Positions 15,198-25,533 of a DNA stretch of 43,368 nt are shown in pieces. The DNA lies in contig PLBE01000195.1 in the NCBI GenBank assembly GCA_003134435.1, positions 28,317 through 71,684 on the forward strand. The letters are read 5' to 3'. Below the pieces are notes generated by a model. That model saw nothing but the letters and a program-made list of their open reading frames with translations. It did not search any database and was not told the DNA's origin. The translations under genes were made by a program, and so were the position numbers. How positions within the stretch are numbered: position 1 is the first letter of the stretch; the number at the start of each line of letters is the position of its first letter. Source of the stretch: Acidobacteriaceae bacterium. Its GTDB lineage: Bacteria; Acidobacteriota; Terriglobia; Terriglobales; Acidobacteriaceae.

Positions 15198-16076
15198 TTA
15201 GGGCTTTGCTCCCCCGAGCGAGGCAGTCGCTAGGGTTCCGCCGAGGCCCATAGTTTCTACCGCCGACGAAGGGACGATCACCATGGAACCCTTTTCCTTG
15301 ATGGCTTCGTAGAGCATGTTCATGGCGCGTAAATGCAGTGCCACCGGATTTTCGGCGTATGAAGCCGCGGCCTGCACAAAACTGTCGGCGATTTCTTTTT
15401 CAGCCTGGCCTAGAATGATTCGGGCCTGCCGCTCACGTTCCGCCTGGGCTTGCCGGGACATGGCATCTTCTAGACCCTGTGGTATCCGCACGTCTCTAAC
15501 CTCAACGGACTGGACAGTTATTCCCCATGGATTTGTTTTCTCGTCAAGAATGCGCTGCAGTTCGCGGCCCAGTGTTTCGCGTTCGGTGATCATTTGTGCC
15601 AGTTCGTGCCGGCCGATCGACTCCCGCAGCGCGGTCTGCGCACTCAAGTTGATTGCGTCGAGGAAGTTTTCGACTTCAAGGATTGCCTTTTCGGCGTTCC
15701 ACACGAGCCAGAAGACAATGGCGTCGACGTTCACCGGCACCGTATCGCGAGTGAGAGTGGATTCCGCCGTTACGTTGGCCACACGAACGCGTTGATCCAC
15801 GAAGGGACTAAGCGTCTCCACGACAGGAATAATGTGAAAAATCCCGGGGCCGCGAAGGCCAACATAACGGCCGAGGCGCAGGAGCGCGACCTTCTCCCAC
15901 TGTCGGATGACCTTGATGGCAAACAACAGGTAGAAGCCCAGCAGTGCTCCCATCATGATGGGCGCCAGATTATGGATCAGCTCGGTGACCGACGCACCGA
16001 TAATCAAGCAGACGACGAATGCTCCGACGGCTACTCCATTCAGCTGTGTGATATCAATTTTTCTGCTCATGCTCAT
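15198..16076 (-). CDS. slipin (stomatin/band 7, SPFH family)
   Basis: This is a 292-residue membrane protein of the SPFH superfamily, which forms oligomeric scaffolds in lipid microdomains. Two hydrophobic segments (about 13-31 and 36-56) precede the SPFH domain (QWEKVALLRLGRYVGLRGPG, VNVDAIVFWLV, WGITVQSVEVRDVRIPQGLEDAM). A charged coiled-coil stretch (AQAERERQARIILGQAEKEI) and a Gly/Ala-rich tail follow. The ATG at 16074-16076 overlaps the GntR stop as ATGA. The ATG two codons later (16070) has better spacing (six bases) from the GAGGAG, so either may be used. No NfeD partner gene is next to it, unlike many prokaryotic slipins; the exported ExbD-like protein occupies that position. Confidence 0.93.
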   Translation of the reverse strand: MSMSRKIDITQLNGVAVGAFVVCLIIGASVTELIHNLAPIMMGALLGFYLLFAIKVIRQWEKVALLRLGRYVGLRGPGIFHIIPVVETLSPFVDQRVRVANVTAESTLTRDTVPVNVDAIVFWLVWNAEKAILEVENFLDAINLSAQTALRESIGRHELAQMITERETLGRELQRILDEKTNPWGITVQSVEVRDVRIPQGLEDAMSRQAQAERERQARIILGQAEKEIADSFVQAAASYAENPVALHLRAMNMLYEAIKEKGSMVIVPSSAVETMGLGGTLATASLGGAKP

Positions 16077-16480
16077 CTCCTCTGATGCCGTTCGGCGATC
16101 AACTCGCGTAACTGTTCGATTAGATTCTCGACTGTAAAACCTGCCGCTCCAGCGCGAGACACGCAGTCCCCCACAATCTGGGTCAATTGCCGCTCGCGTT
16201 CCGCTCCTCCGCTTTTTGGCTTTTGGGCGCTAATAAATGTGCCCGTGCCTTGATGAGTCTCCAACAGTCCCCCCAGTTCGAGTTCGCGATAGGCGCGGAC
16301 GACGGTGTTGGGATTGATGGACAAATCGACCGCAAGCTGACGCACGGTTGGGAGTTGGTCGCCGATTTCGAGTGCGCCGGATGCGATGCCACCGCGCACT
16401 TGGTCGATGATTTGCCGATAGACCGGCACCCCACTCTGGAGGTCGAGGCGAAACCGATGAATGCGGCGACGCAGTGTCAT
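16073..16480 (-). CDS. GntR-family repressor, YtrA subfamily
   Basis: This is a 135-residue regulator. An N-terminal winged helix-turn-helix (about 12-80: PVYRQIIDQVRGGIASGAL, LPTVRQLAVDLSINPNTVVR, LLETHQGTGTFI) is followed by a short helical tail (VENLIEQLRELIAER). This layout, without a large effector domain, is that of the YtrA subfamily, whose members usually repress operons for membrane proteins encoded beside them. Here the coupled neighbour is a slipin. The start ATG 16478-16480 lies only seven bases from a perfect 26-base palindrome that spans its own promoter, so autorepression is very likely. The stop overlaps the slipin start. Confidence 0.95.
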   Translation of the reverse strand: MTLRRRIHRFRLDLQSGVPVYRQIIDQVRGGIASGALEIGDQLPTVRQLAVDLSINPNTVVRAYRELELGGLLETHQGTGTFISAQKPKSGGAERERQLTQIVGDCVSRAGAAGFTVENLIEQLRELIAERHQRR

Positions 16481-16487
16481 CGCCGCT

Positions 16488-16513
16488 CAATGTACTAGTA
16501 TACTAGTACATTG
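16488..16513. promoter_or_regulatory. perfect palindromic operator of the GntR operon
   Basis: A perfect 26-base palindrome has half-site CAATGTACTAGTA, centred between 16500 and 16501. It covers the -10 and the spacer of the promoter below. The size and position suit a dimeric YtrA-type repressor. Confidence 0.85.
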
Positions 16514-16517
16514 TCAA
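16489..16517 (-). promoter_or_regulatory. promoter of the gntR-slipin operon
   Basis: On the minus strand a perfect TTGACA (16512-16517) and TACATT (16489-16494) are 17 bases apart. The expected transcription start (about 16482) is only a few bases before the gntR ATG at 16480, so the message may be leaderless or nearly so. The operator overlaps both promoter elements. Confidence 0.7.
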
Positions 16518-20696: not shown

Positions 20697-21890
20697 CTAC
20701 CGCTCCACCGCCATCGCCACCGCATTCCCCCCGCCCAGACACAGCGCCGCGACCCCGCGGTGCACATCGCGCCGCATCATTTCGTAAATCAAGGTAACCA
20801 GCACGCGCGCGCCACTCGCGCCAATGGGATGGCCCAGAGCCACCGCCCCTCCGTTTACGTTCACGCGGTTCATGTCGAGGCCCAGCTCGCGAATCACGCC
20901 TAGCGCCTGCACGGAAAACGCCTCATTCAGCTCATAGAGATCGACATCGTCCTTCTTCCAGCCCGTCTTCTCCCATATTTTCTGCACCGCTCCAACCGGA
21001 GCCATCATCACCCACTTGGGCTCGACTCCGCTGGTCGCCTGCGCCACGATGCGGACCATCGCCGTCACGCCCAGTTCTCTGGCGCGCACGGCGCTGGTCA
21101 CAACCACGCCTGCCGCTCCATCGTTAACCCCGGGAGCATTGCCGGCGGTGACCGTGCCATCTTTTTTGAACGCGGGCTTGAGGGCGCGCAAGGCTTCAAT
21201 CGTCGTGTCTTCGCGCGGGCCTTCGTCTTTGTCGAAGATCACGGGCGGCTGGCCTTTCTTCTTGTTGGGGATTTCTACCGGAACAATTTGCGCCTTGAAG
21301 CGGCATTCCTTTTGCGCGGCGATGGCTTTGCCATGGGAGCTCACCGCGAACTCGTCCTGCTCTTCGCGAGTGATCCCGTATTTCTCCGCGACGTTCTCGC
21401 CGGTCAGCCCCATGTGATAGTCGTTGTAAATGTCCCACAGCCCATCGTGCACCATGGAGTCGACCAACTGTCCGTTGCCCAGGCGATATCCCTTGCGCGC
21501 ATTGGGCAAAAGATACGGCGCGTTGGTCATCGACTCCATGCCCCCGGCGACCACGATCGAACTGTTGCCGGTCTCGATGGCCTGCGCTGCGAGCGCGACT
21601 GCCTTCAATCCCGACCCGCATACCTTGTTTATGGTCATGGCGCCTACTTCCGGTGCAAGACCGCCGAATAGCGCTGCTTGTCGCGCCGGATTCTGACCGA
21701 GTCCGGCCGACACGACATTGCCCATGATGCACTCGTCGACTTGCTGCGGTTGCAGCTTCGCCCGCTTGACCGCTTCGCGCACGGCGACCGCTCCCAGTTG
21801 TGGAGCAGTCATCTCGCTCAGACTTCCCTGAAATTTTCCGATCGGGGTTCGGCATCCCGCAATGATTACAACTTCATTCGAACCGGCCAT
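20697..21890 (-). CDS. acetyl-CoA acetyltransferase (thiolase)
   Basis: This is a 397-residue biosynthetic-type thiolase. It condenses two acetyl-CoA to acetoacetyl-CoA or does the reverse, in the cytoplasm. Catalytic residues are all present: nucleophile Cys91 in [12 protein letters not shown], His354 in [14 protein letters not shown] and Cys384 in ALCLGGGNA. Other marks are [18 protein letters not shown] at the start and [13 protein letters not shown] in the middle. The start is ATG 21888-21890, with GAAGGAG eight bases upstream. The open frame continues to 22223, but that part is not thiolase-like and contains the promoter. It stands alone, without hydroxyacyl-CoA dehydrogenase or PHB genes beside it. 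Confidence 0.95.
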
Positions 21891-21983: not shown

Positions 21984-22193
21984 GATGGAGGCAGGCTTCG
22001 GAAAGGCTCGCGACCGGCAATCAGGCCGCATTTTCAGCGCAGAGTATTTGCAAAGCCAGAAGCAGTGCGAACGCAACGCGCCGGCAGAACAATTGAGAAT
22101 GAGTGGCGATGTCACGCAAACTTTTCTGCGCGCGCGCATCGCGCATGTGACTTTGGTACAGCGTTGCATGCGACCGTTTCGATCATTTTTCTC

Positions 22194-22222
22194 TTGACTT
22201 CGTTTCGCGTTGACTCTATACA
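22194..22222 (+). promoter_or_regulatory. strong promoter of the micro-ORF/sRNA unit
   Basis: TTGACT (22194-22199) and TATACA (22217-22222) are exactly 17 bases apart, ten of twelve matching the sigma-70 consensus. Transcription would start near 22229. The remaining upstream part of this gap (21984-22193) shows nothing else I can support. Confidence 0.75.
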
Positions 22223-22287
22223 TTCAACTAGTTGCAACAATTCATCGTTGCGAAATTCCATGAAGAATGGAAAGGGAGAATAGATCC

Positions 22288-22335
22288 ATGGCAACCAAAA
22301 AGAAAGCAAAGAAGAAAAGCAGCAAGAAGCACTAA
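22288..22335 (+). CDS. 15-residue lysine-rich micropeptide
   Basis: The ORF reads MATKKKAKKKSSKKH and stops with TAA. Nine of fifteen residues are Lys, and there is no acidic residue. It has a convincing Shine-Dalgarno, GGGAG (22274-22278), nine bases before the ATG. It is the only ORF in a unit bounded by a strong promoter and a rho-independent terminator, so translation is likely although it is far too short for gene finders. Its composition resembles the tails of histone H1-like or HU-like proteins, suggesting nucleic-acid or ribosome binding, but this is inference. Alternatively the codons may only be part of a regulatory RNA. Confidence 0.6.
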   Translation: MATKKKAKKKSSKKH

Positions 22336-22359
22336 GAACCTGCAACAGGCAACGACAAA

Positions 22360-22390
22360 GGGGACGCGATGAGCGTCCCCAAAGTTTTTT
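22360..22390 (+). terminator. rho-independent terminator
   Basis: The stem GGGGACGC (22360-22367) pairs with GCGTCCCC (22373-22380) around a five-base loop. AAAG and six T follow. It ends the micro-ORF unit. On the other strand only three T follow the stem, so it is at most weakly bidirectional for the helicase gene. Confidence 0.92.
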
Positions 22391-22461
22391 GCGGTGATTT
22401 CTGATGGAGCCCCGGTCGCAAACACTAAAATGGGCGAGACGCAGTAATTCCCCGAGCCGCT

Positions 22462-25452
22462 CTACTGTTCGACCCGAGACGCCGATTTCTTTTGCGCAGC
22501 CACCACTCTCTCGGTGGCCGGACAAAGATTCCGATACGGGCAAAACACGCAATGATATTTAGGCTTAGGAGGAAACTTCCCCTCAGCGATTGCCTCCGCC
22601 ACCTTTTTAACCTTCAGTTCCGCCGCTTCCAGTTCGGCGTCCGTCCGCTCCGTGGACACCGCTGTGTTGTTCTCCAGGTTATAGAAAATCAGGCGCTCGG
22701 CGCGCTTTCCCCACACCTCCTTAGCGGCGAGCGCGTACAACGACAGTTGCAGGCTGTCGTCCGCATCCTCCTGCGACTTCGGCTTCCCCGTCTTGTAATC
22801 AACAATGGCCACGGTGTCTGGACCAGTGCAATCCATGCGATCCACCCGTCCCGCCACCTTCGACGATCCTACCTGGAGTTCAAATCTGCATTCGGTATCG
22901 ACGACCTCGGGCTGCGGCCCGCGGCGCGCACACTCAAGAAACTGCCGCAATTGTTCCATCCCCTGCCGCAGATACAGCTCATACTGGTAACGGTCGGCGA
23001 TCCCCGCGGTCGCCAGGGCCGAGCGGAATTGTTCCAGCAAATCGTCGTCACTGATCTCCCGCTGATAGCGCTGCGCGTCGTAAAACGTGCGCAGTACCCC
23101 GTGCATCGCCGCTCCATAGTGCAACGAGGCGGACACATCGCGCGGCAGGTTCCACTCCCTTTCGAGCTTGAAGCGCAATGGGCACTGTTCGTAGATTTCA
23201 ACCGCCGAAGCGCTCAGCCCAGTCACAAAGTTCGCGGACGGCGGCAGCAGCAGCCAAGCGGAAACATTGGATTGCTCCAATGCGATTCGCTCATCCTGTT
23301 CGGCGAACAGAGTATCCTGCACCGCCGCCGCTGAGCGCGTGCTCCAGAACTTCCTGTAGGCGGGGTGAACCATGAATTCGCGCAGGAACTTCGTCGGCTT
23401 CGGATCTTTCTTGGCCGTTCCCTGGTTGGCGTAGATCGCCAGCGTGTCCTGGGCGCGGGTCATGGCTACGTAAAAAAGGCGGCGCTCCTCTTCTTCGTGC
23501 AACGTCTTATCGTCCGCCGATGCCGCGTCCGACCGGCGCAACTCGGACGGAAAAGCGATGAGCGGTTCGTGATAGGTCGTCGGAAACGAAGTCGACGAAC
23601 CGCGCACGATGGCCACATGCCGGTACTCCAGTCCCTTGGCCGCATGCGCCGTCAGCAACTGCACCGCATCTTCGGTGCTGCGCGGAAGCGGAATTCCGCC
23701 GCGCGCTTGCGCAAAATAATCGAGATACTCCAGAAATTCCGAAGGACTGCCAGTTTCAGTAGTGGCCTTGGTGCGCCACGCTTCTACAAACTTCACGAAC
23801 GCTTCGATCGGAATCGACCGCTTCAGATCGAAGTGCCGGACCACGGAGTTCACCGCTTGGTCCGCGCGAACTCCGTCCCGCGACACTTCCCTGTGCGCCT
23901 CTTCGATGCTCTCCAGCACCATCGCGCCCTTCGGCAATTTTCCCAGTACCGTGCGCAGATCGAGATCCTGTCGTCGCACCGCCCTCATCGCAGCTCGCAG
24001 CTCGATGGGGTCGATGCTGAATTGCGGCAGCGCGGTCACGCGAAACAAACTGGCGGCATCGTTAGGAGACACCGCAGCGGTCAGGCAGGCGACGACATCC
24101 CTTACCTCGGGCGTGTCGAGAACGTCCAATCCTTCGATGGCAAACGGGATGCCCCGCTCGGCAAATTCATGCACCAACTCGTCACGATGGTTATGCTGCC
24201 GATAAAGCACCGCGAAATCGCTCCACCGGCAGCGCTCGCTCTTGCGCTTCTTCTGGATGCGGCGAGCCAGGTCGGCGGCTTCAACCTCTTTATCCCGCCA
24301 CGTGACAATTTCGACCAGCGGAGCAGCCAGCGTCTCGCCTCGTTGCTTCGCTTCCTCGTCGCGCAATGATTCCAGGGGCGTCCGCTGATAACAAAGCTGA
24401 CTGGGACTGGAAGTTCCTTTTAGCGGGAACTTCCGCGAGAACACCGGCGGGTTATCTTTTACGATTCCAAAAGCGCAACCGAGGATGGGCGAAAGCGAAC
24501 GCCGATTCTTTCCCAGTACCACCATCGCCGCCTCGGGAAACTTCTTCGCGAACAGATTGAATGCTTCACTCGACGCGCCCCGGAACTGGTAGATCGCCTG
24601 ATCGGGATCGCCCACCGCAAAAACGTTGGCCTCCGCTCCGGCCAGCAACGACAGCAGTTCGATCTGGGCAAAATTCGCATCCTGGAATTCATCCACCAGC
24701 AGAAAACGGGTGCGACGCCTCTCTTCTTCCAGCAACGCAGGGTCGTCCTTCAGCAACTGGTAGGCCCTGGTGATCATGTGTCCGAACGTTCCCAGGTGAC
24801 TGTCGCGAAGCATGTTTTCCACGGTCTCGAACACGCGAGCGATTTCCTGGCAGCGCTCGATGACTTCCGCCTTATCCAAATCGCCCTGATGCTTTGTCTT
24901 CGCAACCCGGGGAACCACCACCTCGCCGCGCTGCAGGCGCTCGCAGTACTGCGCGTATTCCGCCGCGCCGACCAGTTCGTCCTGGCAACGACGCATGAAA
25001 TCCAGCAGGCTGTCCAGGAACTGTCCAACGTTCGCGGCCCGTACGAAGTGCTTCAAATGCAAATCGCGAATGCGGCGGCGCAAGTAGACCCAGAGATCCT
25101 TGTCGTCGAGCACGCCGAAATTCGCGCCGCGTCGATGCAGGAGTCCGTTACACCACGCATGAAAGGTGCAGGCCTGCAGGCCGTCGAGAGCGGTACCTCG
25201 CAGTTGCTCGCGGACGCGCGCCGTCATTTCCGCGGCGGCATTCTCCGTGTAAGTCAGTGCTATCAGCTCTTCCGGACGAGCGTGGCCCTCGCGGATGAGA
25301 TTCGCGGCGCGCTGGGTAAGGACGGTAGTCTTTCCCGTACCCGCCCCGGCGACCACCAGCATGGGACCGCGCAGGTGCGCAATGGCCTGCTGCTGGCGCT
25401 CGTCGGGGACGATCTTGATCGCGGGTGAGGGAGCCGAATTCACGGAATGCAT
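22462..25452 (-). CDS. UvrD/AddA-like helicase fused to an Fe-S PD-(D/E)XK nuclease
   Basis: This 996-residue protein combines a superfamily 1A helicase and a RecB-type nuclease. Helicase motifs in order are DERQQQAI (Q motif), VAGAGTGKT (Lys41), LLVDEFQDAN, AVGDPDQAIYQFRGA, LTAHAAKGLEYRHVAIV and FYVAMTRAQD. From about residue 745 the nuclease starts with YEQCPLRF (Cys about 757) and continues with GRVDRMD and VDYKTGK (Asp about 884). It ends with CVFCPYRNLC (Cys968, 971, 977). One early and three late cysteines are the AddB/Cas4-type [4Fe-4S] staple. It is probably involved in double-strand break end processing. The first in-frame codon is GTG 25455; I take the ATG immediately after it. It follows rsmE by 81 bases and may share its transcript. 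Confidence 0.92.
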   Translation of the reverse strand: MHSVNSAPSPAIKIVPDERQQQAIAHLRGPMLVVAGAGTGKTTVLTQRAANLIREGHARPEELIALTYTENAAAEMTARVREQLRGTALDGLQACTFHAWCNGLLHRRGANFGVLDDKDLWVYLRRRIRDLHLKHFVRAANVGQFLDSLLDFMRRCQDELVGAAEYAQYCERLQRGEVVVPRVAKTKHQGDLDKAEVIERCQEIARVFETVENMLRDSHLGTFGHMITRAYQLLKDDPALLEEERRRTRFLLVDEFQDANFAQIELLSLLAGAEANVFAVGDPDQAIYQFRGASSEAFNLFAKKFPEAAMVVLGKNRRSLSPILGCAFGIVKDNPPVFSRKFPLKGTSSPSQLCYQRTPLESLRDEEAKQRGETLAAPLVEIVTWRDKEVEAADLARRIQKKRKSERCRWSDFAVLYRQHNHRDELVHEFAERGIPFAIEGLDVLDTPEVRDVVACLTAAVSPNDAASLFRVTALPQFSIDPIELRAAMRAVRRQDLDLRTVLGKLPKGAMVLESIEEAHREVSRDGVRADQAVNSVVRHFDLKRSIPIEAFVKFVEAWRTKATTETGSPSEFLEYLDYFAQARGGIPLPRSTEDAVQLLTAHAAKGLEYRHVAIVRGSSTSFPTTYHEPLIAFPSELRRSDAASADDKTLHEEEERRLFYVAMTRAQDTLAIYANQGTAKKDPKPTKFLREFMVHPAYRKFWSTRSAAAVQDTLFAEQDERIALEQSNVSAWLLLPPSANFVTGLSASAVEIYEQCPLRFKLEREWNLPRDVSASLHYGAAMHGVLRTFYDAQRYQREISDDDLLEQFRSALATAGIADRYQYELYLRQGMEQLRQFLECARRGPQPEVVDTECRFELQVGSSKVAGRVDRMDCTGPDTVAIVDYKTGKPKSQEDADDSLQLSLYALAAKEVWGKRAERLIFYNLENNTAVSTERTDAELEAAELKVKKVAEAIAEGKFPPKPKYHCVFCPYRNLCPATERVVAAQKKSASRVEQ

Positions 25453-25533
25453 CACGAGAGAACCACTTGCCGGAGAATATCAGAGCTGGTTGTGGAAGAC
25501 TCTGCCAGGCTTCCGCAATTCCTGCCGGCACAT

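Follow-up and report, generated by a model that had tools for sequence, protein, structure and literature searches.

What kind of gene, if any, occupies some 200 bases beside a thiolase-like gene in an Acidobacteriaceae genome, and would its function lie in a very short lysine-rich peptide, in the RNA or in both? The whole stretch of DNA analysed (hereafter, the window) comprises 43,368 nucleotides, and an earlier note on it had described a real gene too short to be annotated. Window positions 22185-22390 of the plus strand hold a promoter and a terminator that enclose two leader hairpins, a ribosome site and an ORF of 15 codons, flanked by one divergent gene and one convergent gene:

20697..21890 (-), divergent neighbour, which we take to be a thiolase-like acetyl-CoA acetyltransferase gene (start re-read at 21890)
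22185..22199 (+), T-tract and -35 element, ATTTTTCTC TTGACT, with TTGACT at 22194-22199
22217..22222 (+), -10 element TATACA
22232..22253 (+), leader hairpin 1 (from the fold and compensatory changes)
22256..22272 (+), leader hairpin 2, TTCCAT-GAAGA-ATGGAA, directly 5' of the ribosome site (from the fold)
22274..22283 (+), Shine-Dalgarno GGGAG (22274-22278) followed by conserved AATAG (from conservation)
22288..22335 (+), micro-ORF for MATKKKAKKKSSKKH, 15 aa with 8 Lys and zero acidic residues (from coding-type substitution)
22348..22352 (+), GGCAA motif of the 3' region, enriched in loci of the window's family
22360..22390 (+), intrinsic terminator GGGGACGC-GATGA-GCGTCCCC, AAAG, T6 (stem 22360-22380, T tail 22385-22390)
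22462..25455 (-), convergent neighbour, presumably a UvrD/AddA-type helicase gene

The micro-ORF opens with ATG at 22288 and closes with TAA, a 17-base spacer separates TTGACT (22194-22199) from TATACA (22217-22222), and transcription would be expected to start near 22229. The promoter elements and their spacing, the Shine-Dalgarno sequence and the terminator, claimed before to fit into about 200 bases, are all found in place; the promoter counts 9 of 12 rather than the 10 of 12 given, the peptide is acid-free as described with 8 rather than 9 lysines among its 15 residues, and two of the three leader inverted repeats reported are supported as hairpins, the third not. A scan of the region yielded one promoter-like site against 0.6 in shuffled sequence (that is, no excess) and two terminator-like sites against 3.1, both of them one hairpin read on each strand; the unit's own promoter was not listed because the scan demands T at position 6 of the -10 element. 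The fold of the 164-nt RNA beats 200 of 200 shuffles (z = -4.9). What goes far beyond chance is conservation, not the signals in a single sequence.

With 216 bases of the unit as the query, blastn matched 33 of 61 relatives: 22 of 24 genomes of the genus (the source genome included), 11 of 13 from the family's other genera and none of 24 further genomes. The conserved block runs from the T-tract before the -35 element to the terminator tail, with flanks that diverge except for one upstream box, and class-wide comparison places the T-tract and CTTGAC among the most conserved stretches. A covariance model of the promoter, leader and first codons (R1) matched 163 of 399 class genomes, and a model built from 49 class-wide loci (R2), many rows of which come from the genomes searched, matched 257 of the 399, not every match being read. 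In the window's family (f1), R2 matched all but 5 of 110 genomes by row count; one of these five (G316) holds a form without the ORF, and no unit was found in four of the 110 (three of genus g39 and G432 of genus g31). Outside the class, 8 of 349 phylum genomes matched R2 at E <= 0.01 (best 2e-7), and six of these eight were read. Two of them carry Lys-rich ORFs (29 and 26 aa) and a third one of 14 aa; in a fourth, a Lys/Arg-rich frame runs for 145 codons or more and is still open where the retrieved sequence stops, a fifth has a gene not rich in Lys, and the sixth has no such ORF. A degenerate pattern scan returned 87 contig stretches; 79 of the 80 listed are acidobacterial by title, with titles among the matches listed such as Acidobacteriaceae, Terriglobia, Candidatus Sulfotelmatobacter and similar. 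One betaproteobacterial pattern match (L081) belongs to a longer protein, presumably with a SWIB-like domain, and was set aside as a coincidence unrelated to the unit. A phylum-wide promoter-plus-Shine-Dalgarno pattern, present in 86 of 396 genomes, had no acid-free Lys-rich micro-ORF downstream in the 30 loci read. Rfam yielded no family in the region, with the whole window searched at gathering scores and 22100-22460 at E up to 1, and there was no covariance-model match in the region to families including Acido-1 and Acido-Lenti-1.

Substitutions within the micro-ORF are of the kind expected of translated sequence. Across eight alignable codons of 29 complete near loci (the truncated L023 being dropped), 38 of 44 base changes fall at the third codon position, and 34 of the 39 codons that changed still specify the same residue, against an expected synonymous fraction of 0.167, the loci being related and the changes not independent events. 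The near peptides measure 13-17 aa and vary in length in frame, whereas the distance from stop codon to terminator is free of the frame, spread 15/8/6 over the residues modulo 3 in the 29 loci. A Lys-rich peptide of 11-32 aa with zero Asp or Glu is encoded in 37 of the 40 distant loci read, all three exceptions belonging to genus g35; few residues other than K, A, T, S, P, R, H, N and G occur in these peptides, and the Ala, Thr and Pro codons of the distant relatives vary in their third base. Judged by these patterns, the ORF is coding. The terminator forms a strong stem in all 66 coding loci read.

The source genome encodes a peptide of this kind at another place as well:

G000:C181:34362-34612, unit B, on another contig of the source genome (L252 / L254), encoding the peptide MATKKKAAKKKKH

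The promoter and leader of unit B are unrelated to those of the unit in the window (unit A), and its leader and terminator are conserved. Full-length copies occur in 22 of 24 genus genomes, all with the identical peptide, and related copies with slightly different peptides occur in G029, G033 and G027; in G272, whose genome is a single contig, some 0.8 Mb separate unit A from another Lys-rich micro-ORF. Two leaders are joined to one kind of peptide, which is the best evidence that the peptide is a selected product. The claim of a real gene too short to be annotated thus gains support from coding-type substitution, in-frame length changes, class-wide conservation and this second locus. The same observations bear on the alternative that the locus makes a small regulatory RNA and nothing else, the Lys-rich ORF arising incidentally from an unstructured stretch rich in A and G, such as an ARN tract that binds Hfq. 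AAR codons are indeed ARN triplets, the stretch 3' of the ORF is U-poor in f1, orthologues without the ORF exist (see below), and Hfq is encoded in 40 of 41 relatives, making an Hfq-linked small RNA possible; yet this alternative would leave unexplained the third-position bias, the conserved start codon and Shine-Dalgarno sequence, the Ala, Thr and Pro codons of distant relatives, which are not ARN triplets and vary in the third base, and the pairing of a different leader with the same kind of peptide in unit B, and we regard it as improbable. Up to three Hfq-profile matches per genome were seen in many genus members, most of the extra ones weak.

The RNA has a conserved structure as well. In 49 sequences, 88% of the cells of hairpin 1 pair and six of its seven pairs show changes on both sides. 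Cells changed on both sides number 50, where shuffles give 22 +/- 4 and slid controls never exceed 11; for further pair types, the weakest of the covariation measures, 29 of 500 shuffles did as well. On this covariation, leader hairpin 1 is conserved by compensatory change. Hairpin 2 varies little in the near set, and several other genera carry a second hairpin of different sequence at its position (for example, L168, L171 and L178). Among 86 leaders (that is, 96 loci minus two without a recognisable -10 element and eight repeat leaders), the mean fold z is -2.7, with 74 below -1 and two above 0; the group lacking the ORF folds weakest (mean z -1.5). The comparison of peptide against RNA pairing across acidobacterial genomes that the earlier note had proposed finds both the ORF and hairpin 1 conserved.

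Promoter, hairpin and terminator are nevertheless kept without the ORF in genera g33 and g35 and in one g31 species (G185). The Lys-rich ORF is missing from the unit in all eight g33 genomes examined and in 19 of 19 from g35 (10 located with R1 at E up to 1 and 9 read upstream of rsmE); no ATG/GTG/TTG ORF of at least eight codons with 25% Lys is present in the g33 and g35 units, and the same check is positive in 29 of 30 near coding loci, the exception being the truncated L023, with no closing stop. A replacement micropeptide was sought by one pattern for other Lys-rich starts in 15 g33/g35 genomes and none was found, the Lys-rich starts in eight of the 15 being N-termini of longer proteins. 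The existence of lineages without the ORF implies that the peptide is dispensable there. Separately, L288, L289, L291, L301 and L302 (from g31, g33 and g35) encode longer proteins with Lys/Ala-rich N-termini and a shared C-terminal KLKSG..VTNPKQAIAI, a possible source or relative of the Lys-rich peptides.

Are these ORF-less copies relics of a plain micropeptide gene, either decaying or turned into a promoter and 5' leader for rsmE? Such a reading would accommodate the coding selection and the second locus with its different leader, and rsmE does lie just downstream on the same strand in g33 and g35, so that the conservation of the ORF-less unit could partly reflect a promoter or leader role for this gene; we consider a role as rsmE leader the chief rival for the ORF-less copies. 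Set against decay, the identity of leader and linker is 0.82 in g33 and 0.67 in g35b (14 loci), exceeding that of the flanks (upstream 0.37 and 0.28, downstream 0.53 and 0.18, respectively), and because it exceeds the upstream flank in both groups these RNAs are not simply decaying; the four sequences of g35a are uninformative because their flanks are nearly as conserved as the RNA. The linker and terminator of g33 and g35b likewise exceed their flanks in conservation, and terminator stems compensate between g33 species (AACGC/GCGTT, GACGC/GCGTC and AGCGC/GCGCT), a strong terminator before rsmE being ill-suited to a plain promoter. On the other side, the T tails are weaker in these ORF-less units (18 of 25 with five or more T in 12), and identity in the downstream flank of g33 is itself 0.53. 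In the RsmE tree, g31, g33 and g35 group together, poorly resolved, with three g31 loci yielding no RsmE sequence. A further argument against a plain micropeptide gene is the enrichment of GGCAA, of which 65 copies stand in 25 ORF-less linkers against 4.7 expected from shuffles that ignore relatedness (L235, in which no stem was found, being left out). The motif also occurs in the 3' region of f1 coding loci (23 of 29 near, 16 of 18 distant) and in none of 19 loci of other families, so that any such RNA role is not class-wide; the U content of this region is 6-9% in f1 and 28% elsewhere. A long-range pairing between GGCAAC and GUUGC of the leader was weighed but forms no part of our claims. 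On this evidence we regard the plain micropeptide reading as unlikely, if more credible than an RNA without a peptide. The conserved ORF-less orthologues suggest that the RNA has a role of its own, and in them the dual-function RNA raised by the earlier note finds support of an indirect kind.

Gene order speaks to a further proposal, namely an attenuator-like device reacting to lysine. A short Lys-rich ORF does precede a terminator here, as it would in a leader peptide or attenuator responding to lysyl-tRNA; the neighbours nonetheless do not support the proposal. In the window the gene that follows is convergent and not a co-directional biosynthetic one, and across 70 loci the next ORF downstream was called in 67, of which 52 have it convergent and 15 co-directional (3 not called). 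The neighbours also change between loci (helicase, rsmE and others). We reject the lysine attenuator because of this gene order and consider it very improbable. Neighbours were called crudely by longest ORF, and downstream neighbours were compared with the genes of the window only; by these calls, 24 of the 30 near loci and 6 of the 40 distant ones have a helicase relative close to the unit, five of those six being among the 19 loci from families other than f1 (f5, f10 and f12); a thiolase relative is found in 21 of 30 near and 10 of 40 distant loci, and rsmE in 9 of 40 distant ones. Given that helicase, thiolase and rsmE recur beside the unit, part of the class keeps it in place.

Two further elements of the window are recorded here in their own right. 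Most aligned loci of the genus conserve the sequence GTGACTTTGGTAC at 22147-22159, which stands upstream of the promoter of the unit, between it and the divergent thiolase gene, and is possibly an operator of the thiolase promoter. At 16489-16517 (-), just upstream of a 135-aa ORF (16073-16480, -), stands a promoter-like TTGACA-17-TACATT. Its final 24 bases, AATGTACTAGTATACTAGTACATT, are perfectly palindromic across spacer and -10 element and look like an operator for a repressor.

What might such a peptide do? A 15-mer with a charge near +8 would be unlikely to fold and would be expected to bind polyanions, and no hydrophobic membrane segment of the type I toxin kind was found. The composition is that of histone H1-like proteins (that is, Lys/Ala-rich and acid-free, with 37 of 37 distant peptides having no Asp or Glu), and longer forms exist, of 52 aa in G191 (same class) and at least 145 aa in G476. 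Against H1-like models, the 52-mer scores 26 (cutoff 40) and 26.9 (cutoff 80), with E of 1.2e-5 and 5.1e-6, and a 32-mer scores 19.2 bits (cutoff 40) and 14.7 (cutoff 80). No profile match to PF07382, NF038053 or NF038052 rose above its curated cutoff, and the other seven proteins tested gave no H1-like match; Pfam returned nothing for five of the first six peptides tested, and Pfam and NCBIfam returned nothing for the G476 long form or the 29-mer. The 52-mer also matches unrelated low-complexity models (extensin and a valine--tRNA ligase tail), and its PDB matches are weak and to sigma factors only. In another class of the phylum, L322 (G476) has an ORF of Lys/Arg/Thr repeats, 145 codons or longer, preceded by a promoter resembling that of the unit (T-tract and CTTGACA). 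Small basic ribosomal proteins such as Thx are likewise very short and basic; no ribosomal protein operon was noticed beside the unit within the window. The putative nucleoid or ribosome-associated role raised by the earlier note fits the composition and the weak, below-cutoff H1-like resemblance of the longer members. H1-like proteins (chlamydial Hc2, PF07382; Burkholderia-type hist_H1_lk, NF038053; and AlgP of Pseudomonas) are also Lys/Ala/Pro-rich, acid-free, repetitive and presumably disordered. The peptides differ from them in scoring under the curated cutoffs, in having their own conserved promoter-leader-terminator unit and in size, at 11-32 aa in the loci read closely and not the 165-237 aa given for Hc2 (PMC2848022).

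We therefore consider it probable that the unit is a monocistronic gene, that its micropeptide resembles an H1 tail and binds nucleic acid, and that in f1 its RNA acquired a separate function. Under this hypothetical scenario, a strong housekeeping-type promoter would give a transcript of about 160 nt, probably stabilised by its 5'-end hairpin; the ribosome site between hairpin 2 and the start codon would drive translation, and the intrinsic terminator would end the transcript. The product, 11-32 aa long in the loci examined closely, would be highly basic and disordered, and given its charge and H1-like resemblance its likeliest action is to coat DNA or RNA (ribosomal or other) in the manner of a histone H1 tail without the rest of the protein. 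In f1, the same RNA would on balance have taken on an additional role as RNA, one residing in the leader hairpins and the U-poor, GGCAA-containing 3' region, and this role may have outlived the ORF in g33 and g35. We advance more tentatively, as somewhat short of an even prospect, the broader proposal of an ancient class-wide dual-function gene in which both the peptide, a minimal likeness of a histone tail, and the mRNA that encodes it have functions, that of the RNA having arisen in one family and some genera having shed the peptide and kept the RNA with several GGCAA copies.

SgrS, VcdRP and B. subtilis SR1 act as dual-function small RNAs. Like them, the unit would be a short RNA with its own promoter and terminator, a small ORF and an apparent RNA role; at the sequence level it has its own promoter and terminator, a short predicted transcript and an ORF under coding selection. 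It differs from them in its Lys-rich oligomer, its class-wide conservation and the loss of the ORF with the RNA kept (two genera and one species). The cyanobacterial Downstream-peptide motif / yfr6 also has a conserved 5' leader RNA before a short ORF with in-frame indels (PMC2864571); the unit differs in having no Rfam match and simple hairpins, in suggesting no ligand, and in conserving both leader and peptide. The kinds of element are known (that is, small-protein genes and dual-function RNAs), and what sets this one apart is the extreme peptide, the class-wide depth, the second locus with a different leader and the ORF loss with the RNA kept. No paper on this gene was found in the open-access literature, judged by title and the opening of the abstract.

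In summary, the gene is conserved over much of the class, at least one genus has two loci for this kind of peptide, and most pipelines would miss such genes; to our knowledge, genes of 11-32 codons fall below the usual annotation limits. Should it bind DNA or ribosomes, the peptide would rank with the smallest factors of the nucleoid or ribosome. Orthologues lacking the ORF offer a natural means of telling apart the contributions of the parts of a dual-function RNA, in a class that has cultured members (for example, Acidobacterium capsulatum). If the dual-function reading is true, a peptide gene and a non-coding RNA could be compared as orthologues in living genera.
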